64,000 nucleotides of DNA from Kiritimatiellia bacterium (GTDB lineage Bacteria; Verrucomicrobiota; Kiritimatiellia; RFP12; UBA1067), in contig JAFQYM010000027.1 in assembly GCA_017406465.1 (NCBI GenBank), forward strand, positions 1 to 64,000, given 5' to 3'. Positions 20,127 to 32,990 of this stretch are shown here, one piece after another. The position numbers were made by a program, and so were the translations under genes. Each line of letters opens with the position of its first letter. The first letter of the stretch is position 1. A model generated the notes under the pieces. The model searched no databases, had not been told where the DNA came from, and worked only from the letters and a program-made list of their open reading frames with translations.

Positions 20127-22064
20127 TTAGGCGATCGTCTTCGCGACGTTGTAGACGTTCTCGGGCGTGAAGCCGAACTTGACGGAGAGCGTCTGGTACG
20201 GCGCGGACGCGCCGAAGCGGTCGAGCGTGACGAACGCAGTGGTGCGGAAGTCAAGGCGGAAGCGGTCAAGCCCGTACCTCACACCCGCCTCGACGATCAC
20301 GCGGCGCTTCATCTCCTGCGGCATGACCTCGCAGCGGTACTCCGGCGTCGTCTCGAGGTAGAAGCGCTCGATGCACGGGAAGCTCGCGACCCTCACGCCG
20401 CGGCCTTCCGCCGCGAGGCGCTTCGCGGCCTCGATGCAGATCGAGACTTCGGACCCCGTCGCGATGAAGAGAATCGTCTCGGAGTCCTGCTTTCCGGACT
20501 GGTACACGACATATCCGCCCTTCGCGACTCCCTCGGGCGTGACGCCCTCGAGGATCGGCAGGTTCTGGCGCGTCGTCAGGATGCAGCTCGGGCCGTCGGT
20601 GCGCATAAGCATCTCGACCCACGCGTATGCCGTCTCGTTCGCGTCGGCCGGGCGCCACGTGCGGACGTTCGGCATGGACCTGAGGCTCGCGAGCTGCTCG
20701 ATCGGCTCGTGCGTCGGGCCGTCCTCGCCGACGCAGTAGCTGTCGTGGGAGAAGACGAAGATCGACGGAAGCTCCATGAGCGCCGCGAGGCGGATCGCCG
20801 GCTTGCAGTAGTCGGAGAAGACGAAGAACGTCGCGCCGTAGCCGCGCAGGCCCTGGCCGAACGCAGTGATGCCGTTGACGATCGCCGTCATCGCGAGCTC
20901 GCGGATGCCGAAGTGGATGTTGCGTCCCTCGTATGAGCCGGGACCGACGTCGCCGAGCCCCTTGAGGTAGGTCTTGTTGGACGGTCCGAGATCGGCCGAG
21001 CCGCCGACAAGCCCGGTGAAGACCGGCGCAAGCGCGTTCATGACCGTGCCGCAGGCGGCGCGCGTCGCGACGCTCTTCGCGGGATCGAATGCGGGCAGCG
21101 CCTTGAGGAGGTCCTTGCGCGTGGGCGCAGGGGCGGTCTCCTCGGCGGGTTTCGCCGTCTTCTTGGCGAAACGGTGCTGCTGGGTCGTGCGGAACTTGAA
21201 GACGGAGTAGACTTCCTCCGGAACGTAGAAGCTCTTCTCCGGGTCGAAGCCGAGCGCCTTCTTCGTGGCAGCAAGCTCATCGGCGCCGAGCGGCGCCCCG
21301 TGGCAGTCTGCCGTGTCGTGCTTCGTCGGCGCGCCACATCCGATATGCGTGGACGCGATGATTATCGAGGGCTGTCCGGCGACCTTCTTCGCGCGGGAGA
21401 GGACGCGGTCGATCGCGGCTGGATCGTGACCGTCGACCTCGAAGACCTTCCAGCCATAGCTCTCGAAGCGCTTTTTGGCGTCGTCGGCCATCGCAAGAGC
21501 GGTGTCGCCCTCGATGGTGATGTGGTTGGAGTCGTATATGAGCGTGAGATTGTCGAGCTTGAGAGCGCCCGCGAGGCTCGCCGCCTCGTGGGAGATTCCC
21601 TCCTCGAGGTCGCCATCGCCGCAGAAGACCCACGTGCGGTTCTGGACGCCCTTCTTCTTCGCAGCGAGCGCGAGACCGACGGCCATCGCGATGCCCTGGC
21701 CGAGCGGACCCGTCGTCACCTCGACGCCGGGCGTCACGCCGCGCTCGGGGTGGCCGGCGCAGCGGCTGCCCCACTGGCGGAACTCCATTAGCTCCTCCAT
21801 CTTAAGTCCGCCCATGCCGGAGAGGTGGAAGAGAGCGTATACGAGGGAAGAGGCGTGTCCGCCGGAGAAGACGAGCCGGTCGCGACCGGCCCATTCCGGG
21901 TCCTTGGGGTCGACATTGAGGTGCTTGAGCCAGAGGACTGAAGCGAGGTCGGCCATGCCCATCGGGGCGCCGGGGTGGCCTGATTTCGCCTTTTCAACCA
22001 TATCCGCGCAGAGGCAGCGGATGGTGTTGGCGACGAGACGGAATGTTTCTTCGGTGAGTTTCAT
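20127..22064 (-). CDS. tkt: Transketolase
   Basis: 645 residues from the ATG at 22064; an in-frame upstream ATG at 22154 would add residues that are rnc sequence read out of frame. The thiamine-diphosphate motif GDGDLEEGISHEAASLAGALKLDNLTLIYDSN region, the N-terminal KSGHPGAPMGMADLASVLW, the ITAFGQGLRGYGATFFVFSDYCKPAIR pyrimidine-domain segment and the C-terminal domain are intact. It transfers two-carbon units in the non-oxidative pentose phosphate pathway. No Shine-Dalgarno is present; an extended -10 TGGTATAAT ends 9 nt before the ATG and overlaps the rnc stop, so the mRNA is probably leaderless. murJ follows after 12 nt. Confidence 0.96.
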   Translation of the reverse strand: MKLTEETFRLVANTIRCLCADMVEKAKSGHPGAPMGMADLASVLWLKHLNVDPKDPEWAGRDRLVFSGGHASSLVYALFHLSGMGGLKMEELMEFRQWGSRCAGHPERGVTPGVEVTTGPLGQGIAMAVGLALAAKKKGVQNRTWVFCGDGDLEEGISHEAASLAGALKLDNLTLIYDSNHITIEGDTALAMADDAKKRFESYGWKVFEVDGHDPAAIDRVLSRAKKVAGQPSIIIASTHIGCGAPTKHDTADCHGAPLGADELAATKKALGFDPEKSFYVPEEVYSVFKFRTTQQHRFAKKTAKPAEETAPAPTRKDLLKALPAFDPAKSVATRAACGTVMNALAPVFTGLVGGSADLGPSNKTYLKGLGDVGPGSYEGRNIHFGIRELAMTAIVNGITAFGQGLRGYGATFFVFSDYCKPAIRLAALMELPSIFVFSHDSYCVGEDGPTHEPIEQLASLRSMPNVRTWRPADANETAYAWVEMLMRTDGPSCILTTRQNLPILEGVTPEGVAKGGYVVYQSGKQDSETILFIATGSEVSICIEAAKRLAAEGRGVRVASFPCIERFYLETTPEYRCEVMPQEMKRRVIVEAGVRYGLDRFRLDFRTTAFVTLDRFGASAPYQTLSVKFGFTPENVYNVAKTIA

Positions 22065-22073
22065 AGGGGGTAT

Positions 22074-22082
22074 ATTATACCA
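22074..22082 (-). promoter_or_regulatory. Extended -10 promoter of tkt
   Basis: TGGTATAAT on the minus strand, with the -10 box ending 9 nt before the ATG. The rnc stop codon TAA is part of the box. No -35 consensus is seen, as expected for an extended -10 promoter. Confidence 0.65.
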
Positions 22083-22725
22083 TAGATAGGAGTTTCGCGG
22101 CGGCCATGGCCTCGGCTTCCTTGTGGCTGTGCGCCGACGCAGAAGCGGTTCCAAGACCGTCTACGGTGACTTCCACGGTGAAGACCGGCTCGTGGTCGCT
22201 GCCCTCGGTCTTGACGAGCTGGTAGGTGGGGTGGCGCGGCGGAGTCATTGCCTGCGCGCGGATCTGGAGGTCGCCCTTGGGGTTGAAACCGGCAGTGTCG
22301 GCCATCGAGGCGAGATCCAAGGCGTCGAAAATCGTCCGCGCAGCGTCAAGACCGCCGTCGAGGAATGCGGCGCCGATTACAGCCTCTACTGCGTCGGCGA
22401 GCGTCTTCGAGTTTTCCGGCAGCGGCGCCGCGCCCTTGTTGCGCCTGAGCCGCGAGGCGAGATCGTGGCGCGAGGCCGCCTCGCAGAGCGCGGCGGAGGA
22501 GACCATGTGCGTGCGCTTTACGGTGAGAACGCCTTCCGGCGCGTCGGGCAGGGAGCCGTAGAGCCGCTCCGCCGCGATGAAGCCGAGGACGGCGTCGCCG
22601 AGGAATTCAAGCCGCTGGTTGTCGGCCGCGTCCGGGCTGCTCATCTTGAACGACGGCGTCGTCAGCGCTTCTTCGAGAAGCGCGGCGTTTTTGAAAGAGT
22701 AGCCGAATATTTCCATGATGGACAT
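22075..22725 (-). CDS. rnc: Ribonuclease III
   Basis: 216 residues. The signature QRLEFLGDAVLGF (~36-48) and the second acidic site in AVIGAAFLDGG are present, followed by a double-stranded RNA-binding domain (PTYQLVKTEGSDHEPVFTVEV ... KEAEAMAAAKLL). It processes rRNA precursors and structured mRNAs. ATG at 22725 or 22716 may be the start; neither has a good Shine-Dalgarno. Odd: the leader and first start codon are made of an iterated repeat (CACAGAGATG), so the repeat abuts the coding sequence. Confidence 0.93.
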   Translation of the reverse strand: MSIMEIFGYSFKNAALLEEALTTPSFKMSSPDAADNQRLEFLGDAVLGFIAAERLYGSLPDAPEGVLTVKRTHMVSSAALCEAASRHDLASRLRRNKGAAPLPENSKTLADAVEAVIGAAFLDGGLDAARTIFDALDLASMADTAGFNPKGDLQIRAQAMTPPRHPTYQLVKTEGSDHEPVFTVEVTVDGLGTASASAHSHKEAEAMAAAKLLSMV

Positions 22726-22753
22726 CTCTGTGTTCTCAGCGCCTCTGCGTGAG
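22725..22753. repeat. Iterated short repeat, CGCAGAGGC type, at the rnc start
   Basis: On the minus strand ACGCAGAGG, CGCTGAGAA and CACAGAGAT follow with a 9-nt period and run into the rnc start codon. A second copy of this word family is at 35471-35495. Confidence 0.7.
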
Positions 22754-22773
22754 ACATTTGCGAAGTTTAGGTC

Positions 22774-22862
<89 letters not shown>

Positions 22863-22871
22863 GTTTCCAAC

Positions 22872-22880
22872 AGTCTACCA
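22872..22880 (-). promoter_or_regulatory. Extended -10 promoter of tRNA-Leu
   Basis: TGGTAGACT on the minus strand ends 9 nt before the first tRNA base. It fits the extended -10 pattern seen before several protein genes here. Confidence 0.5.
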
Positions 22881-22955
22881 AATCGCGCCCCTCGTGGCAA
22901 TGCCCAGCAGCTTGCTTGTCGGAGAGATGTGGCATCTTCGGAAAATCGACTCGCT

Positions 22956-23783
22956 TCACTTGCGCTTATGCCACAGCCCGATATGCGTCCCGATGCGTGC
23001 CAGCAGCAACCCGAGACGCGTCTTGACTCCATAACGTTCCATTTTCCGTTTCAGCCGGGACTCCCTCTTGCGCCTGGCTTCCTCGCGCCTCTGGCTGGCG
23101 TCGAACATGCGCCGCTCGTCGTCAGTACGGTAGTCATGCGCCGTCACCCCCAGCTCGGTCAGTGCCTGGGCGGTGAATTCGAAGGCGACGTCGCGCACCG
23201 GATCGCGATAGCCGAATGCGATCTGCGTGACGCCCTCGGCGGGATGCAGTACGCGCCTGTCCGCGAACGTCCTGCCGTCCTCGTTCACAAACTGCACGAT
23301 GTCGAACGTCCTACCGGGGAAGGTCTCCGCGAGCCTCTGCCGGCATTTCGTCAGTTCTTCCACCGGCTCAGCCGCCTCGTCCGGGCGCGTGATGTATGCC
23401 ACCAGCACTCGCCGTGACGAATCAAGCATCTGGTAGAGCCGTTCGATGCGGCGGCGGTACTTCTCGCGCACTTCGCCGTAGGCCTGCTCTATCGGACCTG
23501 CGGGAAAGTCGTGCGGATGCCGGAATCCCGTGCGCCGGTTGATGAACACGCCCAGGCCGTTCTTCGGATTGACGCCGTGGTAGGTGAAGTCCTCCTTCTC
23601 AAGCCACCCCGCAAAGCGCGAGGCGACTAGGGCGGTGCGCGAAGCGAGCGAGCCGCCGCTCACCCAGTCGAGCGGGAACGAGGCGAACTGCAGTCCTGCG
23701 TGCCTCAGGGTCATCGAACAGGTGCACGCCTGTCCCATGCTGAAGACAAAATCATAATCATAGTCCTGCGTCTCAGTGTCCAT
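22956..23783 (-). CDS. DUF1796-family (putative papain-like cysteine peptidase) protein
   Basis: 275 residues. The N-terminus FVFSMGQACTCSMTLRHAGLQFASFPLDWV matches the DUF1796 family, in which a conserved Cys and later His suggest a papain-like fold; FVNEDGRTF and YRDPVRDV further along also fit. The last ~60 residues are strongly basic (RREEARRKRESRLKRKMERYG) and may bind nucleic acid, membrane lipids or a partner. In other bacteria the family often appears near glycan genes, but here its neighbours are parE and a tRNA, which do not define its role. A TGGTATACT box lies 12 nt before the ATG and no Shine-Dalgarno is seen. Confidence 0.75.
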   Translation of the reverse strand: MDTETQDYDYDFVFSMGQACTCSMTLRHAGLQFASFPLDWVSGGSLASRTALVASRFAGWLEKEDFTYHGVNPKNGLGVFINRRTGFRHPHDFPAGPIEQAYGEVREKYRRRIERLYQMLDSSRRVLVAYITRPDEAAEPVEELTKCRQRLAETFPGRTFDIVQFVNEDGRTFADRRVLHPAEGVTQIAFGYRDPVRDVAFEFTAQALTELGVTAHDYRTDDERRMFDASQRREEARRKRESRLKRKMERYGVKTRLGLLLARIGTHIGLWHKRK

Positions 23784-23795
23784 GGCGTGAAATGA

Positions 23796-23804
23796 AGTAT
23801 ACCA
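23796..23804 (-). promoter_or_regulatory. Extended -10 promoter of the DUF1796 gene
   Basis: Minus-strand TGGTATACT, with the box ending 12 nt before the ATG at 23783, leaves a leader of about 5 nt. Confidence 0.5.
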
Positions 23805-23847
23805 TTATGTGCGGCCGGCGCGCAATCGCATTTCTACCCGAAACGCG

Positions 23848-25692
23848 TCAGAAATCGGCGGCGTCGCAGACGAGCGACTCCATGATGTAGTCCTTGCGCT
23901 CGGGCGTGTTGGCGCCCATGTAGAACTTGATCGTCTTCTCGACGTCGGTGTCGTCGGAGCACGTCACGGGCGTAAGGCGCATCTCCTCGCCGATGAAGCC
24001 CCTGAAGTCCTCCTTGTCGATCTCGCCAAGTCCCTTGAAGCGCGTGATCTCGCAGCCGCGCCCGCACTTCTTTATCGCGTCCTCGCGCTCCTCGTCGGTG
24101 TAGCAGAAGTAATGCTCCTTCTTGTTCCTGACGCGGAAGAGCGGCGTTTCGAGAATGAAAACGCGCCCGTCGAGGATGAGCTGGCGGTAAAAGCGCATGA
24201 AGAACGTCGTGAGGAGCATCCTGATGTGGAGTCCATCGACATCGGCATCGGTCGCGAATATGATCTTGCCGTAGCGAAGGTGCTCGAGCGTGTCCTCGAT
24301 GTCGAGCGTCTTGATAAGGTTGAAGAACTCCTCGTTCTTGTAAAGGACGTCCTTGTTGAGCCCGCAAGTGTTGAGGCACTTGCCGCGCAGGAAGAAGACC
24401 GCCTGGTTCATCGCGTCGCGCGCGCCGCCGAGCGTACCGCCCGCGGACTGGCCCTCGGTGAGGAAGATCATCGTGTCCTCGCCCTCGGCCTTGCCCGTCT
24501 TCTTGTCGACCTTGTCGAGCTTCAGGTGGTTCTTGCAGTCCTTGAGCTGGGGAACGCGCACCGAAACGGCCTGCGACCTCTCGCGCGCCTGCTTCTTTAT
24601 CGTGTTGAGCTGCGAGCGGATCTTCCCAGTCTCCTCGACCTTGGAGATGAGCTTGTCGGCCTCGGACGGCGAGCGGTGGAGAGCCGCCTCGATCTCCTTC
24701 TTCATCTGCTGGACGAGCTCGGACTTGATGTCGTTCATCACGAACTTGATCTTCGTCTGTCCTTCGAAGACCGGGTTCATGATCCTCACCGAAACCGCGC
24801 CGAGAAGCCCGTCGCGGATGTCGTCGCCATCGAACTTCTTCTTCGGGTCGTAGTCGTTGAGCGCCTTGGTGAGCGCCTCCTTGAACGCCGTGAGGTGCGT
24901 GCCGCCGTCGGTCGTGTACTGGCCGTTGACGAACGTGTGGTATTCCTCGCCGAAGCGGTTGGTGTGCGTGAAGATTATCTCGAGCGACTTCGTCTTCACG
25001 TGGAACGGCTGGTAGAGCTTCTCGAACTGCGCCTCGTCCGCGATGAGGTCGGCGAGCCCGCGGTCGGAGCATATCTCCTGGCCGTTCAGGACTATCGTCA
25101 GCCCCGCGTTCACGTAGCAGTACATCTTCATGCGCCTGAGGACGTGCTCCTCGCGCACCTTGAACTTCTTCAGCACCTTGAGGTCGGGCTTGTAGCGGAT
25201 GTAGGTTCCCGAATGCTCGTTGGTCTTGAGCTTGCCGCGCTTCTTGGACTTTAGCCGCCCTTCCTCGAAATACGCCTCGGAGAACTCGCCGTCGCGGAAC
25301 GAGCGCACCTCGAAGAACTCGGAGAGGGCGTTCACGGCCTTCGTGCCGACGCCGTTCATGCCGGCGGAGAACTGGTAGTTCTCGTTGTCGTACTTTCCGC
25401 CCGTGTTCATCTGCGAGACGCAGTCTACGACCTTGCCGAGCGGTATGCCGCGCCCGTAGTCGCGCACGGACACTTCGCCCGTGTCGTAGTTGACGTTCAC
25501 GTCGATGCGCTTGCCGAAACCCTGTCCAAACTCGTCGATCGCGTTGTCGATCACTTCCTTCATCAGGATGTAGATACAGTCGTGGTACATCGCGCCCGTT
25601 CCGGGCTCGCCGACGTACATGCCGGGGCGCAGCCTTATGTGCGTCACCGGATCGAGAGTCTTTATGCTTTTATCACCGTAGTCTGTAGCCAT
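23848..25692 (-). CDS. parE: DNA topoisomerase IV subunit B (ParE-type GyrB/ParE)
   Basis: 614 residues from the ATG at 25692. A longer in-frame start at 25893 is rejected because it would read through the upstream ~0.5-kb element. The GHKL ATPase motifs (EVIDNAIDEFGQGFG, RDYGRGIPLG, GMNGVGTKAVNALSEFF), the transducer domain and the TOPRIM domain (DADVDGLHIRMLLTTFF) are present. The TOPRIM glutamate motif reads EGQSA instead of the usual EGDSA, keeping the catalytic Glu. Features such as YNEEF-like NEEFFNLIKTLDIEDTLEHLRYGK and TPLFRVRNKKEHYFCYTDEE match the Bacteroidetes/Chlamydia ParE group. No parC lies nearby. TGGTATAAT ends 9 nt before the ATG; no Shine-Dalgarno. Confidence 0.92.
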   Translation of the reverse strand: MATDYGDKSIKTLDPVTHIRLRPGMYVGEPGTGAMYHDCIYILMKEVIDNAIDEFGQGFGKRIDVNVNYDTGEVSVRDYGRGIPLGKVVDCVSQMNTGGKYDNENYQFSAGMNGVGTKAVNALSEFFEVRSFRDGEFSEAYFEEGRLKSKKRGKLKTNEHSGTYIRYKPDLKVLKKFKVREEHVLRRMKMYCYVNAGLTIVLNGQEICSDRGLADLIADEAQFEKLYQPFHVKTKSLEIIFTHTNRFGEEYHTFVNGQYTTDGGTHLTAFKEALTKALNDYDPKKKFDGDDIRDGLLGAVSVRIMNPVFEGQTKIKFVMNDIKSELVQQMKKEIEAALHRSPSEADKLISKVEETGKIRSQLNTIKKQARERSQAVSVRVPQLKDCKNHLKLDKVDKKTGKAEGEDTMIFLTEGQSAGGTLGGARDAMNQAVFFLRGKCLNTCGLNKDVLYKNEEFFNLIKTLDIEDTLEHLRYGKIIFATDADVDGLHIRMLLTTFFMRFYRQLILDGRVFILETPLFRVRNKKEHYFCYTDEEREDAIKKCGRGCEITRFKGLGEIDKEDFRGFIGEEMRLTPVTCSDDTDVEKTIKFYMGANTPERKDYIMESLVCDAADF

Positions 25693-25701
25693 TAACCTGA
25701 T

Positions 25702-25710
25702 ATTATACCA
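25702..25710 (-). promoter_or_regulatory. Extended -10 promoter of parE
   Basis: TGGTATAAT on the minus strand, with the box ending 9 nt before the ATG at 25692. It lies 32 nt beyond the end of the ~0.5-kb element copy 1. Confidence 0.65.
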
Positions 25711-25741
25711 TACTACGGGCGATGCCGTTGCCGCTTTTGCT

Positions 25742-26270
25742 GGCAGTGCTTCGCGTTGGATGTGGGTGTACTGTGGCTTGCTCTGTGCTTGGTTGCCTTC
25801 CAGTGTGCGGTCACGGTCGAAGATTGCTCCGGTGAGCTGCGCGAAGGCTCGCCTAACCCGTCGGGTCTTGTCATCGCGACGGCTCTCACACATCAGACAA
25901 TGAGCCGAGTTTAGCCTGCCATGCCTCGGCGTCTATCACTGGTTGCGTACGCAAGCGCCTCTTACGCCTGCGAGACAAGACCGCTCCTCTTACGCGACCT
26001 TCGCCTCCGCCCACCTACGCCATGGTGCCCTCGCTTCGCTCGGGAATGTCACTCCTCCCGCGCGCTGCATCCACCGTCCGCAGCGCGATACTTCGTCGGC
26101 GGAATACCGCCTTCTCGTCTCGCTTGCGTCCTGTGGCGCATCACGCGAACTGTCGTCGCGCCGTTCCCCTGCGCTTGCTCCTTACACATGCGCCGTTAGC
26201 CCGACCTTCCGCTATGGCGCGTTTTCCTTCGTAGCCTCAGCGCTCGCCGACTCATCGTCGTCTCGCTTAA
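25742..26270 (-). repeat. ~0.5-kb element of unknown type, copy 1
   Basis: This fills the 595-nt stretch between the zinc-ribbon gene and parE. Read on the minus strand it shares three blocks, in the same order and spacing, with 26861-27370 on the plus strand: block I at 26249-26199 (GGCGAGCGCTGAGGCTACGA ...), block II at 26132-26091 (GGCGG-TATT-CCGCC hairpin then GACGAAG), block III at 25819-25742 (CGACCGTGACCGCAC ... ACGCGAAGCA). Stops interrupt all long frames, so it is not an obvious gene. It could be a structured RNA, a decayed mobile element or a repeat family. It does not show RNase P RNA or tmRNA signatures. Confidence 0.6.
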
Positions 26271-26287
26271 CTACTTGTGACCGTGCA

Positions 26288-26626
26288 CTATCGGTAAATG
26301 CCGTCGGGGCCTTTCGTGTAGCCCATGCTCCTGATCGCTTTCTCGGGATCGCTAATCGTTCGGTTATTCACCCGCGCATAGACGATCAAACCAACCAACG
26401 CGAGGCCGAGAGCCAGAAAGAATACAAGAAGGATTCGCGACTCCAGACTCATGCGCCCCGAGCTGGCAAAATGCTCGGCCCAGAAATCCTCGGCCTTTTG
26501 TGCAGTATACCGCACGAAGAATTGCTTGCCGCAGCCCGTGCATGTCTTTGAACGCGACTCTCCGCCACGCATAAACAACATGAAAAGCTCATTCTCTTTT
26601 CCACAATATGGACATTTGAAAATCAT
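26288..26626 (-). CDS. Zinc-ribbon single-pass membrane protein, hypothetical
   Basis: 112 residues. The N-terminus has two Cys pairs (CPYC at 5-8 and CTGC at ~29-32), as in MJ0042/zinc-ribbon proteins, then a helix at ~63-84 (ILLVFFLALGLALVGLIVYAR) and a short tail. The start overlaps the stop of a possible 27-codon ORF by ATGA and no Shine-Dalgarno is present, so translation may be coupled. Copies of the ~0.5-kb element lie on both sides, pointing away from it. Function unknown; codon use looks AT-richer than the neighbours. Confidence 0.7.
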   Translation of the reverse strand: MIFKCPYCGKENELFMLFMRGGESRSKTCTGCGKQFFVRYTAQKAEDFWAEHFASSGRMSLESRILLVFFLALGLALVGLIVYARVNNRTISDPEKAIRSMGYTKGPDGIYR

Positions 26627-26706
26627 AACTCAATCAAATGGGGAAACACCCCTTTGGCGTTGCCCTTTTTATCGCCCATTTTGATGTTTTCTTTCACTTT
26701 CCTCAT
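26623..26706 (-). CDS. Possible 27-residue ORF coupled to the zinc-ribbon gene
   Basis: ATG at 26706, Lys-rich peptide starting MRKVKENIKMGDKK, and TGA overlapping the next ATG as ATGA. A TATAAT (26731-26726) lies ~20 nt upstream. There is no Shine-Dalgarno and the ORF is short enough to be chance; a leader peptide is a fair guess only. Confidence 0.35.
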   Translation of the reverse strand: MRKVKENIKMGDKKGNAKGVFPHLIEL

Positions 26707-26800
26707 TTTTAACGGCGTTGGGCATATTATAGCGAAACTTCCGCGCTGAAATCAAGCGCGGCGAAATGAGATTACGGTGCGGACGAAATTATTCGCGAAG
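26707..26800. other. AT-richer intergenic stretch
   Basis: It contains a TATAAT at 26731-26726 (minus strand) that may serve the small ORF and zinc-ribbon gene. Nothing else is recognisable. Confidence 0.4.
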
Positions 26801-26845
26801 CAGTTAGGGTCGATTAGGGTCATATAGCGTCGGATGGCGTCGCGG
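26801..26845. repeat. Iterated short repeat, TTAGGGTC type
   Basis: Four 10-nt units (cagTTAGGGT, cgaTTAGGGT, catATAGCGT, cggATGGCGT) run in register, just before copy 2 of the ~0.5-kb element. The same word is iterated inside kdsD at 49280-49402. Confidence 0.8.
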
Positions 26846-26860
26846 CACATTTGTCGTGGA

Positions 26861-27370
26861 TTAAGCTCGCTGACGGGACGGCGGCGAGCGCAGATGCTAC
26901 GAAGAAAAACGCGCCTTATGGAAGGTGAGGCAAGGGACGAGGGGTCGAGTGCCGAACTGAGCGACATGCAACGACGCGGTTCGTCGGATGCGCAGCGAGA
27001 CACGCCGCAAGGCGAGGAGGCGTATCCGCCGACGAAGCATTGCGGCGCGTATCGCCGCGAAGACGACGGGAGCGGCGGCGCATGGAGCGGGAGAGAGGCC
27101 AAGACCGCGAGCACCGCGCCGAACTCGACCAGAGGTGCCAAGCGCGGTCACGGTCGGGGCCGCAGCGGGGCGGAACCCGCGAAAATGAGACGAGTCGCGC
27201 AGGACTGCGACCCGAAGACATATATGTATATGTCGAGCGGTCGCAAGGACGCGCGAATCGGCCATTTCTCGCGGGCGAGCACCGTTGCCCCGACCGTGAC
27301 CGCACGTTGACAGGCAAACCGGCACAGATCAGCACACGCGCATCACCAGAATGACGCGAAGCAAAGTGCC
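26861..27370 (+). repeat. ~0.5-kb element of unknown type, copy 2
   Basis: It fills most of the 746-nt gap between the small ORF and the radical SAM gene. It carries the same ordered blocks as copy 1: 26882-26931, 27007-27037 and 27291-27370. The first block agrees at about 42 of 49 positions by eye, and the start of the third at roughly 36 of 45. A short perfect hairpin GACATATA/TGTATATGTC is at 27217-27234. ORFs inside are Arg-rich and show no family. The right end stops 2 nt before the stop of the convergent radical SAM gene. Confidence 0.6.
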
Positions 27371-27372
27371 GG

Positions 27373-28143
27373 TTAGAGGAGGTCGAGGGGGGTTTTGCGC
27401 CTGGCGCCGGGAAGGTCGGCGACGAAGCGCGGGAGCGCAAGGCCACCAATGCGCTCGGCGCAGTAGGCCTCGATCTTTTTCGCACGGGCAAGCGGAACGC
27501 CAAAGCGTTCCTGAAGCCCCTCGACGGGATCGCACTGGAAGACATAGTAGGGCCGAATCCTCGCGGCGGAAAGTGCGCGGAGAAGCGCAAGCATCTTGCG
27601 CGGCGTGTCGTTGAGCCCGCGAAGAAGCACCGTCTGCGACGAAACGGGAATGCCGCAGTCGACGAGCCGCGCCGCCGCCTCGCGCGCAAGATGCGCCTCT
27701 TCAGCCGTGTTGATGTGGACATTCGCCCAAACCTTGCCGCGCCCGACGCGGCGCAAGAGCCGCGCGAGACGAACGGTGACTCTCGCAGGACTGACGACTG
27801 GCGCGCGTGTGCAGATGCGAACGACTTCTATCTGGTCAAGCTTCGCAAACGCCTCGACGAACCTTGCCACTTTCGCGTCGGGAAGCGTAAGGACGTCGCC
27901 GCCGGAAAGGAGCACGTCGCGCACTTTCGTATGGCGCTTTACGTAATCGACGCAGGCGGCGAGCCGTTCGGGCGAGTCGACGACAGGCGACTTCCCGAGG
28001 ATGAACTTTCGCGTGCAGTGCGGGCACGCGCAGAAACAGCGGTCCGTCGTCATGACGAGCACACGGTCGGGAAACCTCTGCTTCAGACCCGGCGGCAGCG
28101 AACGGCGCGGCGCCAATTCTCCAAACGGATCCTTGCTACTCAT
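27373..28143 (-). CDS. KamA/EpmB-type radical SAM protein (short form)
   Basis: 256 residues. The radical SAM cluster motif is CFCACPHC (CX3CX2C, ~36-43) after RVLVMTTDR, followed by VLLSGGDVLTLPD and QIEVVRICTRAPVVSPARVT, which are characteristic of the lysine 2,3-aminomutase/EpmB family, and by NVHINTAEEAHLAREAAARL and QTVLLRGLNDTPR. Family members are usually ~330-420 residues, so the N-terminal extension and C-terminal zinc/dimer region are shortened here. Its ATG overlaps the stop of the AT/DH/PPTase gene by 8 nt, so it is translated with the polyketide-like proteins. No EF-P gene is nearby to support an EpmB role. Substrate unknown; an aminomutase acting on an amino acid or an acyl precursor is possible. 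Confidence 0.82.
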   Translation of the reverse strand: MSSKDPFGELAPRRSLPPGLKQRFPDRVLVMTTDRCFCACPHCTRKFILGKSPVVDSPERLAACVDYVKRHTKVRDVLLSGGDVLTLPDAKVARFVEAFAKLDQIEVVRICTRAPVVSPARVTVRLARLLRRVGRGKVWANVHINTAEEAHLAREAAARLVDCGIPVSSQTVLLRGLNDTPRKMLALLRALSAARIRPYYVFQCDPVEGLQERFGVPLARAKKIEAYCAERIGGLALPRFVADLPGARRKTPLDLL

Positions 28144-31100
28144 CGAACAGCGTCATTGGAATGAAACAGAAGGCGAGCGCATGGTCGCGCATCACGCGCG
28201 ACACGACGTCGATGTCGCGGCCACGGAATTTCTTGAAGGCGTCGAGCCACGCGCCCTCGAGCCGGACGATGAGCTTCCCGGTGTCCGGCTGGTATTCGGT
28301 GACGTGCATCTCGCGGGGGCTGTAGCGAATGCCGGTGCCGAGCGCCTTGGAGACGGCCTCCTTCGCGCACCAGAAGCGGATTATCGCCTGCGACGCATTC
28401 GCCGCGTTCGCCGCAAGCTCGAGTTCCTCGGGAACGAACACTCCCGCCGTGAACTCCTCGGAAAGATCGCGTTCGACCGACTCGACGTCGACGCCGACGC
28501 GCGCGTTCGCCGCCGCGAGCGCGATGATGAACTGCGCCGTGTGCGCGATCGCGATGTCGATCTTCGTCGAGAGATAGTCGCCCCATGCCCCAAGCGCATG
28601 GGGCTTCCCCGAGTCGTCGCGCCAGATCTGTATGTCGGCGTCGCTCCACCTCGCCTGGTGGAAGTCCTTGAGGTAGCGCCTGACGGCCTCCTTCGCCGCG
28701 ACGCGGCCGAACAGCCATTCGGTGCGGCGCGAAGTGGAGCCCGGCATGCTGCGGAACTCGTCGCGCTCCTGCGCCCCGAGGACGACGTGCGAGAGCGTCT
28801 TCAGCCAAATCTCCTCGTTCCGCTCGAAGATCGGATACGGAACGTCGGTGATGAACGCGCTCGCGACGTCTGTCGCGGGGTCTCCGAGCATGTCGGTCGA
28901 GACGCGCCGCGTGAGAAACGCGTTGGCGGGCTGAAGGACAAGTTCGCGGTATTCTGCGGGAACGCGCTCGGTGAGCTCCTCCCAACCGGAGATAGACATT
29001 ATGGCGACGCCGTTTCCATCTGTGGCCGTGATGTCGCAGACATGCGATTTAGGCGTCACGCCCGTAAGCCGCAGGTAGCACTTGAGCCGAGACCCCTCGT
29101 GCGGCTGCGAACCGAAGAACTCGAGCTTCCTCAGCCGGAACGGGAACGAAAACGCGCCGGTGAACCGCTCGTGGCTGCGCCAGAGCGCAAAGCCGCTCGT
29201 GATGGCGCCAAGGAGCAGCGGGTTCACAAGCCACAGCGGGAAGCGCGTGAAGACGACGGCGTCGGAAAGCGACGGAACCTCGACCTCGTAATCAAGCCCG
29301 GACTCGCTCCACGACTCGACGAATCGAATGTCCCTCAGCCGACGTCCGTAGCAAAGGCGCGTAGGATATATGTCGCGGTCCGACCAGTGGACCGTCCGGG
29401 GCTTGAACATCGGAGGCGTGGAGACAGGCACCATGGGGGCATGCTGGTCGGCCATGACAAACACGCCGTCCATGACGGGCCATGTATAGGCAGAGTTCGG
29501 GGAATCGTCCCGTATCTGAACGTTGACGGCCGCGAGCTTTGCGTCTCCCGAAGCGACGCGCTCAGCCTTTATGAAAAGCTTCAGCTCGCCGCCGGTGAAC
29601 GAAACCATGCGCCTGCAGCCCAGGTTCTCGATCGAGACGAGCGTCCTGTTCGGAACGAGCATTCGCGCGACCTCTGCCATCATCTCGGCGGCAACGGGAA
29701 TCGACAGCACGACGAGACCCTTGAGGTTCGGGTCGGAATAGGAAAGCTGGCTCGCGCCAAGCGCGAAGTCCGCGAGAAACGGCGCGTCGGAAGTGCGGAA
29801 AGTCTTCGAGATCTCGATCGAGACGCCAGGACTCTGCGCGAGGATGTCCGCATCTGAGACGAGCGGATTCGCGGCGCCAAAGTCGAACTGGCGCTGGCGG
29901 CGGGCCTTCGCCGCTACCGCCGCCGCCCTCTGCGCGGCCTTTGCGCCGCGGCCCGTCGGCTCGGTGAGGAAGTTCGCTCCCTGCAGGAAAGTCTCGTCGC
30001 CGAGCAAGGTGAGACGCGGAAACGCGCTCGAGAGGCGCATCTCCGCGTCGCGACGCTCTTCAAGGGAAAGCACGGAGTCGAAGTCGAGCTTTTTCGGGCG
30101 GCGACGCTCGAACGACTTCGAGAAGTCGAATTTCACGCCGTACGCGGCAAGCTGCCCAAGCGCGTGGCATGCCTGCAGGACTCCGCGGCGGTGTATCGAG
30201 TTGAGCGCAATCGCCGCAAAGTTGGAGCCCTTCAGAGTCTCGGAGACCGCCGTCGTCATCAGCCCGCGCGGACCGACCTCGAGAAACACGCGGTAGCCGT
30301 CGGCATGCATCTTGAGAATCGTCTCGCGAAACCTCACCGGCTGCGCCCAGCGCTCGGCGGTGTCGTTGCGCGCGGGACGCGCTTTCCTAGGAAGCTTCTC
30401 GGCCTGGGCGCACGAATATACGTCGCACACAGACTCGTGCTTCATCCAGTCGCCAGCGAACTTCTTGACGCCCGCGACTATCGGCTTGCACTTCGACGTG
30501 TTGAAGGGACGCTCGAGCGCAAGCTTCATCGTGCGGATGCCCGCGTCGGCAAACGCCTTTAGCGCCGCCTCCTCGTAGTCTGACGCGACGGCGTACGTGC
30601 GCTGGCGCGGCGAGAAGTCGAGCGCAAGCACAACCTTGTCCGTCGGGAAGCCCTTCACAACCTCGTCCGCCTCGCCTTCGTGCTTGAGGAGAACTGAAAT
30701 CATGGCGGTCTTTGGAAGCCCTGAATGATCCACCGCCTTGTCGACGATCTTGTAGATGTCGCGAATGGCGCGCACCCTGACCGGCCGAGGGTTGTCAATG
30801 CCAGCCGCACCGGAGCGCATAACCGCGGCAAGATCGCCGCCCACGCAGCCAACGACGCCGTCGGGCTGGACGCCAAGCCGGTCAAGAAGCCGGGACATGG
30901 CTACGCACCCGGAGAACGACGCTACGAACGCCTGCGCATACGCGCCGGAACTGAAGATGTCGGCATCGTGGCGGTAGTAGGGAGCCGGCGGGAAGATGAA
31001 GCTCGACGGCGTGAAGTCCGGGTCGTCGGAAAGCGCCTCCTCGAGCTCGTCGAACGCCGCGCGGCACTCCGGATGGAGTATCGCGATGTCGCGGAGCATG

Positions 31101-31462
31101 TCGGGATAGTAGCTCATCACGCCGGGATAGACGAACGCGAGCTTCCCGGTTCCCTCGCCGGCAAGATGTTCGCGGAAGTAGTAGGTGCCGCTCTTGTCGC
31201 GTATCCGCGCCGCTCCCGACATGATGCGCGAACGCGCGGAGAGAAGCCGCACCCTCAGCTCGTTGACGCTCGAGACTACGAGCGCGAGAACGGCGTCGCC
31301 TCGCGCAAGGGAGCACGTGTAGGCGACATCGGCGAGTGGCGCGTCGGGAATGCGGTCGAGAAATGCCGCAAGGCGGGAAATCTCGGCGACAAGCGCCTCG
31401 TCGTCCGCCGCCGAGACGAGGACTAGCTCGGTTCTCCCCACAGCTCCGAATTCCGCCGTCAC
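28136..31462 (-). CDS. AT-like/DH-like polyketide-type protein with C-terminal phosphopantetheinyl transferase
   Basis: 1,108 residues, GTG start at 31462 overlapping the ketosynthase-like stop (GTGA). Residues ~100-420 resemble an acyltransferase, but the GHSxG nucleophile site reads GCVGGD (Val207 for Ser) and the active-site His region reads RPFNTSK (Asn321). Residues ~500-860 resemble a double-hotdog dehydratase, with FLADFALG where LADH is expected and NPLLLGA where HPxLLDA is expected. From ~960 to the end is a Sfp/AcpS-type transferase with VGVDVE (~990) and FWCAKEAVSKALG (~1030) intact. No ACP, KR or ER is seen. It resembles PUFA-synthase/Pfa-like components. It probably works with an active synthase encoded elsewhere, activating its carrier protein. 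Confidence 0.8.
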   Translation of the reverse strand: MTAEFGAVGRTELVLVSAADDEALVAEISRLAAFLDRIPDAPLADVAYTCSLARGDAVLALVVSSVNELRVRLLSARSRIMSGAARIRDKSGTYYFREHLAGEGTGKLAFVYPGVMSYYPDMLRDIAILHPECRAAFDELEEALSDDPDFTPSSFIFPPAPYYRHDADIFSSGAYAQAFVASFSGCVAMSRLLDRLGVQPDGVVGCVGGDLAAVMRSGAAGIDNPRPVRVRAIRDIYKIVDKAVDHSGLPKTAMISVLLKHEGEADEVVKGFPTDKVVLALDFSPRQRTYAVASDYEEAALKAFADAGIRTMKLALERPFNTSKCKPIVAGVKKFAGDWMKHESVCDVYSCAQAEKLPRKARPARNDTAERWAQPVRFRETILKMHADGYRVFLEVGPRGLMTTAVSETLKGSNFAAIALNSIHRRGVLQACHALGQLAAYGVKFDFSKSFERRRPKKLDFDSVLSLEERRDAEMRLSSAFPRLTLLGDETFLQGANFLTEPTGRGAKAAQRAAAVAAKARRQRQFDFGAANPLVSDADILAQSPGVSIEISKTFRTSDAPFLADFALGASQLSYSDPNLKGLVVLSIPVAAEMMAEVARMLVPNRTLVSIENLGCRRMVSFTGGELKLFIKAERVASGDAKLAAVNVQIRDDSPNSAYTWPVMDGVFVMADQHAPMVPVSTPPMFKPRTVHWSDRDIYPTRLCYGRRLRDIRFVESWSESGLDYEVEVPSLSDAVVFTRFPLWLVNPLLLGAITSGFALWRSHERFTGAFSFPFRLRKLEFFGSQPHEGSRLKCYLRLTGVTPKSHVCDITATDGNGVAIMSISGWEELTERVPAEYRELVLQPANAFLTRRVSTDMLGDPATDVASAFITDVPYPIFERNEEIWLKTLSHVVLGAQERDEFRSMPGSTSRRTEWLFGRVAAKEAVRRYLKDFHQARWSDADIQIWRDDSGKPHALGAWGDYLSTKIDIAIAHTAQFIIALAAANARVGVDVESVERDLSEEFTAGVFVPEELELAANAANASQAIIRFWCAKEAVSKALGTGIRYSPREMHVTEYQPDTGKLIVRLEGAWLDAFKKFRGRDIDVVSRVMRDHALAFCFIPMTLFDE

Positions 31463-32862
31463 AGTCGATCCTCCGGTTCCTCTTCAAGCACTATCGCGGC
31501 GGCGCGGCCGCCCTTCGAGGTGGTTCCAACCGGGTCGATGGCGTCGAAGTTTGCGCCAAGCACGACGGCGCGGCGCGGACTCGAGCTGTCGCCGGTTATC
31601 CACGGACGCGCCTCGTCGAGAAGATATGCGCTCGACGCGAGGTTCGCAAGCGATTCATGCGGCCGCTCCGGCGATATCTGCGGCGGCAGGACACGGCGGG
31701 AAAGCGCGAGCACGGCTTTCGCGACGCCGGCGGCCATCGCCGCGCGGAGCGTGTGGCCGATATTACCCTTCACGGAACCCATCGCGACAAGCGGTCCGCC
31801 AGGGCGGTGCTCGCCCCAGAGCCGGTGGACGGCGTCGATCTCGCGCTGCTCGGCGACGGCAATCCCCGAGCCATCCGCCTCTATGAGCCCGACTGTCTTG
31901 ACGGGGATGCCGCTTCCCTCGGTCGCCTGCGCGAAGATGGCGGACGGATCGTCCTCTGGGTTGTGGCCTATCGCGATGGAGCGGACGAGGGCGTAGATCT
32001 TGTCATGGTCGCGCAGCGCGTCGGCGCGACGCTTCAAGACGAAGAACGCGCCGCCTTCGCCGGGAATCGTGCCGTCCTGTTCCTGGGCAAAAGGATGAAG
32101 CTCCGTACGCGCCGAGAACGACACCTCGCCGGAAAGCCCCTCGAGATAGGCGCGCGGAATCGGCGGCGTGAGCGCGCCTGCAAGGGCGACGTCCACCTGG
32201 CCGGAAACGAGGTCGGCTATCGCGTCCTGCAACGTCGCGGCGCCGGTGAGAAGTCCGGCGTCCATCGTCGTCGCAACGCCCGCAAAGGAACACTCACGAG
32301 CGATCCACGACGCAAAGCGGTAGCCGGTGCCGAGCAGGAAGGAAGACGCGTTCGGCTCTGGCAGGGATTCGACAAGCTTCTCCTTCACGACACCAAGCGA
32401 CTCCTCGGGCGCATGCGGGAAGAAGCGGCGGATGATGTCCATCGTCTGGTCGAGGAACGCAGTATGCTGAAGCCAGTTCACCGTCGAGGCGTTGAAAGGC
32501 GGCGCATAGCCGACGCGCACGCTGCCCTTTACGGGAGTCGGCGAATGCGGGCGGAACCCCGCGTCGGCAAGTGCGTCAAACGCAAGCTGCGTCGCGAAGT
32601 AGAGGTCCTGGTTTTCGCCGGCGTTCACCTGGCGCGGAAAATTCTGCATCGAGGGAACACACGCGAAAAGCGGCCCAAGCTGTCCCATCCTCACGGGATA
32701 GGGCCTCTCGAAGACATTGCGCTGGCCGAGCGGCAGCTCTGCGTCGGGGCCAAGCGGCGTCAGGCAGCAGCGGCGCGCCATCACGGCGCCCCAAAAGGCC
32801 GACGGCGTCGGGCACCCTGCAAACCGGCACGACATGCCGACTATGGCGATGGGAGATTCCAC
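31459..32862 (-). CDS. Ketosynthase-like protein lacking the catalytic Cys and first His
   Basis: 467 residues, GTG start at 32862. The thiolase/KS fold is recognisable from IAIVGMSCRFAGCPTPSAFW, GTGYRFASWIA, GQVDVALAGALTPP, PGEGGAFFVLKRRADAL and GSVKGNIGHT. At the nucleophile elbow, DTACSSS is replaced by DAGLLTG (Leu204 at the Cys position), HGTGT is replaced by DGSG (Asp330), and His370 of GNIGH remains. It is therefore probably non-condensing, like chain-length factors or other KS homologues that act as partners. It overlaps the AT/DH/PPTase gene by 4 nt. TGATATAAT ends 8 nt before the GTG with no Shine-Dalgarno, so it is likely leaderless. tRNA-Ser(GCT) ends 34 nt upstream. Confidence 0.85.
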   Translation of the reverse strand: MESPIAIVGMSCRFAGCPTPSAFWGAVMARRCCLTPLGPDAELPLGQRNVFERPYPVRMGQLGPLFACVPSMQNFPRQVNAGENQDLYFATQLAFDALADAGFRPHSPTPVKGSVRVGYAPPFNASTVNWLQHTAFLDQTMDIIRRFFPHAPEESLGVVKEKLVESLPEPNASSFLLGTGYRFASWIARECSFAGVATTMDAGLLTGAATLQDAIADLVSGQVDVALAGALTPPIPRAYLEGLSGEVSFSARTELHPFAQEQDGTIPGEGGAFFVLKRRADALRDHDKIYALVRSIAIGHNPEDDPSAIFAQATEGSGIPVKTVGLIEADGSGIAVAEQREIDAVHRLWGEHRPGGPLVAMGSVKGNIGHTLRAAMAAGVAKAVLALSRRVLPPQISPERPHESLANLASSAYLLDEARPWITGDSSSPRRAVVLGANFDAIDPVGTTSKGGRAAAIVLEEEPEDRL

Positions 32863-32896: not shown

Positions 32897-32990
32897 TGGC
32901 GGAGAGAGAGGGATTCGAACCCTCGGTACGGAAATTAACCCGTACGACGATTTAGCAAACCGTTGCCTTCAGCCACTCGGCCATCTCTCC
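32897..32990 (-). tRNA. tRNA-Ser (anticodon GCT)
   Basis: Acceptor GGAGAGA pairs with TCTCTCC, CCA is encoded, the anticodon loop is TTGCTAA, the long variable arm (GTACGG...CCGTAC) marks class II, and the T arm is GAGGGTTCGAATCCCTC. It lies between nagA and the ketosynthase-like gene. Confidence 0.97.

Follow-up and report, generated by a model that had tools for sequence, protein, structure and literature searches.

The synthesis of holo-ACP is essential, and textbook bacteria rely for it on AcpS, a protein of about 120 aa. In Pseudomonas, with PcpS, and in cyanobacteria, one Sfp-type PPTase appears to replace AcpS for the ACP of fatty acid synthase (FAS), and these enzymes are small stand-alone proteins. 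PPTases can also be covalently joined to a synthase, as in the alpha subunit of fungal FAS and in enediyne polyketide synthases (PKS), where the host synthase is active and supplies the substrate of its own PPTase. Ketosynthase (KS) folds that lack the nucleophilic Cys, including the chain length factor, KSQ and KS0, are a further known kind; these either accompany an active KS or serve as decarboxylases within functioning synthases.

The secondary lipid synthases encoded by pfaABCDE have been described together with their types (Shulse & Allen 2011, PMC3098273), including the case of Pseudoalteromonas sp. DS-12, in which the PPTase is incorporated in PfaC, while Verrucomicrobia and Lentisphaerae go unmentioned in that work. 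The gene pair analysed here is best read as the remnant of such a PUFA-synthase-like (Pfa-type) lipid synthase, minus its partner. The named examples of its bearers are rumen and gut bacteria belonging to one order of Kiritimatiellae, and its PPTase, the sole one, probably serves the ACP of FAS II on a platform that is itself non-catalytic.

The gene pair and its surroundings

The window, that is, the whole 64,000-nt stretch of DNA analysed, lies within contig C55 of a 3.5 Mb genome that is distributed over 102 contigs and is 82.9% complete. The KS gene and the gene of the second protein, referred to below as the fusion, share 4 nt, as the original prediction had stated, and together they encode ~1,570 residues of synthase-derived protein, with the PPTase at its end (Table 1). 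The Pfam domains of the fusion are a KS-AT linker, an acyltransferase (AT; PF00698, with a score barely over the cut-off), a dehydratase (PS-DH) and ACPS/PPTase. The last of these scores 65 bits for PF01648 against a cut-off of 25, and its GVDxE ... W(C/S)xKEAxxK motifs are those of Sfp-type (group II) PPTases. The nearest NCBIfam names are PKS_plus_SDR and PfaA, both far under their cut-offs.

Table 1. Coordinates in the window of the gene pair, its domains and altered codons, and neighbouring features
Feature	Position (nt)	Strand	Basis or remark
Pseudo-ketosynthase protein, 467 aa, KS fold	31459..32862	-	Pfam KS N and C domains
KS Cys204 to Leu codon	32251-32253		
KS His330 to Asp codon	31873-31875		His370 kept
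AT-DH-DH-PPTase protein (fusion), 1108 aa	28136..31462	-	Pfam
Pseudo-acyltransferase domain, residues ~106-425	30188..31147	-	PF00698, alignments, CurL KS-AT fold match
Pseudo-dehydratase double hot-dog region, residues ~536-835	28958..29857	-	PF14765, intact-relative alignment
Sfp-type PPTase domain, residues ~866-1108	28136..28867	-	PF01648, E 6.6e-18
Overlap of KS and fusion genes	31459-31462		4 nt
KamA-like gene, 256 aa	27373-28143	-	Named by eye
tRNA-Ser gene	32897-32990		
Sigma-70-like site	33035-33007		Immediately upstream of tRNA-Ser gene
Open reading frame, 1,215 aa	40705-44352	-	Described by eye
Open reading frame, 3,827 aa	52357-63840	-	

A clean promoter had been attributed to the pair. 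This is doubtful, as the lone sigma-70-like site may equally well belong to the tRNA-Ser gene and the number of such sites (1 observed) equals the shuffled expectation (0.9). The end of the fusion gene is overlapped by 8 nt by a short gene for a lysine-2,3-aminomutase/EpmB-like (KamA-like) radical SAM protein, which was considered as a conserved operon member and left outside the unit, since many members of the genus, but not every one, have it next to the fusion. The window also holds a very long open reading frame and another whose product combines a long EEPAPAA repeat with a secretin-like C-terminal part.

Loss of catalytic residues and retention of folds

Set against its intact relatives, in which the KS motifs read DAACASS, EAHGTG and GNIGH, the KS of the window reads DAGLLTG, EADGSG and GNIGH, with Leu at residue 204 (TMDAGLLTGAA), Asp at residue 330 (EADGSG) and His370 retained (GNIGHT). 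In the AT, GHSxGE and YHT are replaced by GCVGGD and FNT, leaving Val at residue 207 (GCVGGD) and Asn at residue 321 (RPFNTS). The dehydratase (DH) motif FLLDHTLG has become FLADFALG, with His replaced by Phe566, and in DH2 LLLDA has become LLLGA, with Asp replaced by Gly752. Apart from KS His370, the catalytic KS, AT and DH residues of a working Pfa synthase were not found in the pair, while the PPTase motifs GVDVE and WCAKEAVSKALG are intact in the fusion. The residue check and the alignments agree on every one of the KS, AT and DH losses that the original prediction had listed, and on its intact PPTase motifs.

These losses are not peculiar to the window. One genome-contig scan returned 43 homologous KS loci, with best segments 61-93% identical and with titles mostly of Kiritimatiellae, Verrucomicrobia, Lentisphaerae or uncultured (RUG) bacteria. 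That the substitutions should be conserved in homologues had been proposed as a check, and among rumen Kiritimatiellae they are so in 44 homologues of the KS and about 35 of the AT. The KS Cys column is never Cys (L, I, M, N, A or V in 44/44) and His330 is absent from all 44 (Asp in 42), with His370 retained in 42; the AT Ser is missing from 35/35 (A, V or G), as is the AT His (Asn in 34), and the DH His column never holds His. The GVDVE and WCAKEA motifs of the PPTase, by contrast with these losses, are invariant in 33/33 save for V/I at one position. Because the losses recur across homologues, they are fixed features of the protein family rather than errors.

The strong conservation in the genus of Asp330, Lys365 and His370 of the KS and of Asn321 of the AT could be taken to mark a migrated or new active site, endowing the KS or AT with a different catalytic activity. 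However, the same positions vary across the order, the KS motif at His330 being EMNASG in family f3 and EAHGSG in other genera of family f1, and the former active sites hold no invariant new Cys, Ser or His, which makes such a change of activity very unlikely.

Structure models predict that the KS and AT folds are kept. The AF2 model of the KS (pLDDT 76.9, pTM 0.81) finds its best PDB matches among PKS ketosynthases (Z 46.4, rmsd 2.5 over 364), and residues 5-463 of the fusion model (mean pLDDT 75.5, pTM 0.49) match the CurL KS-AT didomain (Z 37.9, rmsd 3.2 over 418). With respect to the two-half (pseudodimer) fold of Sfp-type PPTases, AF2 models two alpha/beta stretches over ~866-1104. The Foldseek/VIA matches of the 1108-aa model were nearly all to KS-AT/AT or whole-PKS structures, so the DH and PPTase folds are assigned from sequence profiles and from secondary structure. 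Malonyl-CoA binding through an AT Arg was considered and set aside, the position nearest the expected malonate-binding Arg (Arg234) being only partly conserved (25/35) in an approximate alignment.

Ancestry and graded loss across lineages

A search with an AT-DH-PPTase profile recovered the fusion in families f1-f5 of the order and not in f6, together with relatives in other orders of the class. In this search the A2 profile matches five genomes (G185, G213, G222, G171 and G200) at E 1e-70 to 1e-94, with shared domains. In four of the other-order loci (L090-L093), the AT is intact (GHSxGE...YHT/YHS) and the DH His present (LLDH/LRDH); the three with a KS gene in view (L091-L093) also have an intact KS, with DAACASS or DGACASS, EAHGTG or EAHATG, and IGH. 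All four genomes carry a long PKS frame of 1264-2543 aa, and the same region as one intact pair (L091, in G185) encodes an ER-KS-AT-ACP-KR protein resembling PfaD-PfaA. Domain order, sequence kinship and the tree all agree with descent from a Pfa-type secondary lipid synthase.

Within the order, the loss of catalytic residues is graded. In f4 (L104) the KS triad is kept and the AT Ser and DH His are lost; in f2 and f5 the AT Ser and His are kept and the KS Cys and DH His lost; in several other f1 genera KS His330 and the AT Ser survive and the AT His is lost; and f3 has lost the KS Cys, AT Ser and AT His alike. The PPTase motifs are intact in every sequence covering them across the order. The proteins group by family with good support in the tree, f4 and the intact proteins lying on one side of the midpoint root. 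As the families differ in the subset of residues kept, catalysis was lost piecemeal and by different routes in different lineages. The description of the catalytic residues as all missing consequently holds for the window and its genus, with the exception of His370 that had been noted from the start, and not for the wider order. Homologues of this architecture that do carry the catalytic residues, a finding that was to have counted against the original prediction, occur only outside the order (families f16 and f26); their genomes hold a long partner synthase, and they identify the ancestor without refuting the dead state here.

The fusion as the only PPTase

The genome of the window contains a single PF01648 match, which is the domain of the fusion. 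Across the order, 146 of the 162 genomes have such a match, and none of the 48 genomes with a completeness of at least 90% and a contamination of at most 5% is without one. In families f1, f3, f4 and f5, exactly one match was found in 126 of the 129 genomes with any, and the frame that holds it is almost always some 1100 aa long or longer. Family f6, without KS or fusion, has its PPTase in stand-alone form, as a rule in frames of ~275-390 aa. Among the genomes with an intact cluster, two (G185 and G213) have a stand-alone PPTase besides the fusion, and in two others (G171 and G222) a stand-alone PPTase accompanies an AT-DH protein without a recognisable one. Additional matches occur in G001, G002 (f2), G039 and G072; in f2, the fusion together with extra PPTases plausibly represents an intermediate state. 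The PF01648 search was positive in 10 of 14 control genomes, and ordinary AcpS is therefore detectable by it, though a PPTase too diverged for this profile would escape. The fusion is thus the only PPTase found, as befits a housekeeping holo-ACP synthase, with the caveat that these genomes are incomplete (83% for that of the window), so that a second PPTase could escape in any one of them, not plausibly in all.

The original prediction saw in the pair a scaffold or gatekeeper that primes a partner synthase, here taken as an active PKS of the cell. The intact PPTase fits this, as do the other-order relatives, which sit in genomes with a long synthase of KS-AT-ACP-KR type. Nevertheless, a KS search (PF00109) covering the genome of the window (83% complete) and 32 others found in the former only FabF and the pair's own KS and no partner synthase, and five relatives likewise have two KS matches each, one FabF-like and the other the pair's. 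An ACP-bearing KS-AT-ACP-KR (PfaA) partner was not found in the window's genome, and most relatives have no long PKS frame: such frames were seen in the four genomes with an intact cluster and, among 26 tested pair-family genomes, in G001 and G039 only. The priming of a partner synthase is accordingly unsupported and, as an account of the pair, extremely improbable. In G039 (L070) the long frame lies on contig C15 at ~21341-27504 and in G001 on contigs C87 and C176, in both cases with an extra PPTase, and these are possibly lipid synthases that were retained or re-acquired.

FAS II components are encoded elsewhere in the genome, namely FabF, FabD and a FAS-type ACP (C14:42387-42590; GADSLDS, with a DSL motif), and the dead domains are therefore dispensable for FAS chemistry. 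As the fusion carries the only PPTase, the housekeeping ACP of FAS II is its most likely substrate. The one other carrier protein found, a small ACP-like protein whose gene (L049, C51:27450-27635) adjoins a glycosyltransferase-like frame, is a candidate for another target.

Selection on the dead domains

Among seven close relatives, dN/dS is 0.095 for the KS, 0.095 for the AT, 0.13-0.15 for the DH region (DH2 and DH1, respectively), 0.22 for the KS-AT linker and 0.12 for the PF01648 domain; pairwise controls gave 0.05-0.14 for NagA, 0.03-0.06 for RecA and 0.12-0.13 for the KamA-like gene. Purifying selection acts on the dead KS and AT as strongly as on the PPTase, by which a reading of the pair as decaying pseudogenes is rejected for the genus. 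Together with the conserved residue losses, this agrees with the non-catalytic nature first proposed for the pair.

The earlier exclusion of decay holds less well in some other lineages. The KS is present in 131 genomes of the order, including 41 of the 42 high-quality genomes of f1-f5 and none of f6, while in-frame stops interrupt it in three (G052, G053 and G043), and the survey of the order detected no KS in two (G054 and G056). An in-frame stop also interrupts the fusion gene of G019. Stops in single genomes reflect either lineage decay or assembly errors; decay of the KS in g13 is possibly true, and the KS is dispensable or decaying in some lineages, which weakens the case for an obligatory role. 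In six genomes (loci L014, L028, L033, L034, L035 and L045) no fusion gene comes after that of the KS; the fusion lies elsewhere, as the sole PPTase, both genes persist, and the six KS occupy three positions in the KS tree.

The disrupted and missing KS genes, the faster evolution of DH and linkers relative to AT and PPTase, and the differences between lineages in the residues lost would all suit a relic, in which selection acts on the PPTase only and KS, AT and DH persist because their removal is hard or slow. Two observations make this quite unlikely: dN/dS in the dead KS and AT does not exceed the PPTase value, and the KS, a separate and easily lost gene, is kept in nearly all high-quality genomes and even after the locus has split. 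A regulatory function, with the dead pockets binding acyl-ACP or acyl-CoA, gating the fused PPTase and coupling holo-ACP supply to lipid status, is consistent with the predicted retention of the folds and with the strongly constrained sequences of KS and AT, which contain invariant blocks, and a sole essential PPTase would be a plausible point of control. Yet the residues of the catalytic pockets vary by lineage, the AT Arg234 position is conserved in only 25/35, and ligand binding finds no support in anything tested, so that we hold this function to be rather unlikely. For most of the order, use of the dead megasynthase as a regulatory, docking platform that gates the sole holo-ACP synthase is a tentative idea at best; if true, fatty acid synthesis would depend on a complex of a KS pseudoenzyme and an AT/DH pseudoenzyme-PPTase.

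The reading that we favour, a synthase remnant serving FAS II, would involve the following steps. A Pfa-type lipid synthase would have lost its partner, its C-terminal PPTase becoming the only one of the organism and converting the FAS II apo-ACP, along with any further carrier protein, into the holo form. KS, AT and DH, without their former catalysis, would have been kept as a folded, non-catalytic PPTase platform, which may dock the ACP on their old carrier-protein surfaces or stabilise the PPTase; docking, stability and gating are the scaffold roles that we infer. The dead pair is apparently retained because one of its proteins carries the cell's only ACP-activating PPTase.

Comparison with known systems

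Most of the order appears to rely on a PPTase that ends ~1,570 synthase-derived residues, the dead parts of which are under strong purifying selection. The series from intact through partly dead to fully dead forms illustrates how a multi-domain biosynthetic machine can lose catalysis and yet persist because a housekeeping task has passed to one of its domains. It also offers a setting in which the function of a dead KS is directly testable, as no active synthase is there to obscure the outcome. A search of the open-licence literature found no paper on a dead synthase bearing the sole PPTase in Kiritimatiellae.

With PUFA synthases, the pair shares a KS, an AT, tandem DH domains and a PPTase, encoded by genes that are neighbours or fused; unlike them, it has no ACP-bearing PfaA partner and no intact KS, AT or DH, and its PPTase is the only one of the cell. 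The Cys-less KS fold is shared with chain length factor, KSQ and KS0, whereas no working synthase was found for the pair. Fusion of the PPTase recalls fungal FAS and enediyne PKS, but the host synthase is here dead and without ACP. As in Pseudomonas and cyanobacteria, the sole PPTase is of the Sfp type, although here it forms the end of a dead megasynthase rather than a small protein. The pair is by descent a Pfa-type secondary lipid synthase, its proposed role is that of a holo-ACP synthase, and it falls outside the definition of a working lipid synthase; it combines known kinds, the pseudoenzyme scaffold and the integrated PPTase, in a combination of which we found no report.
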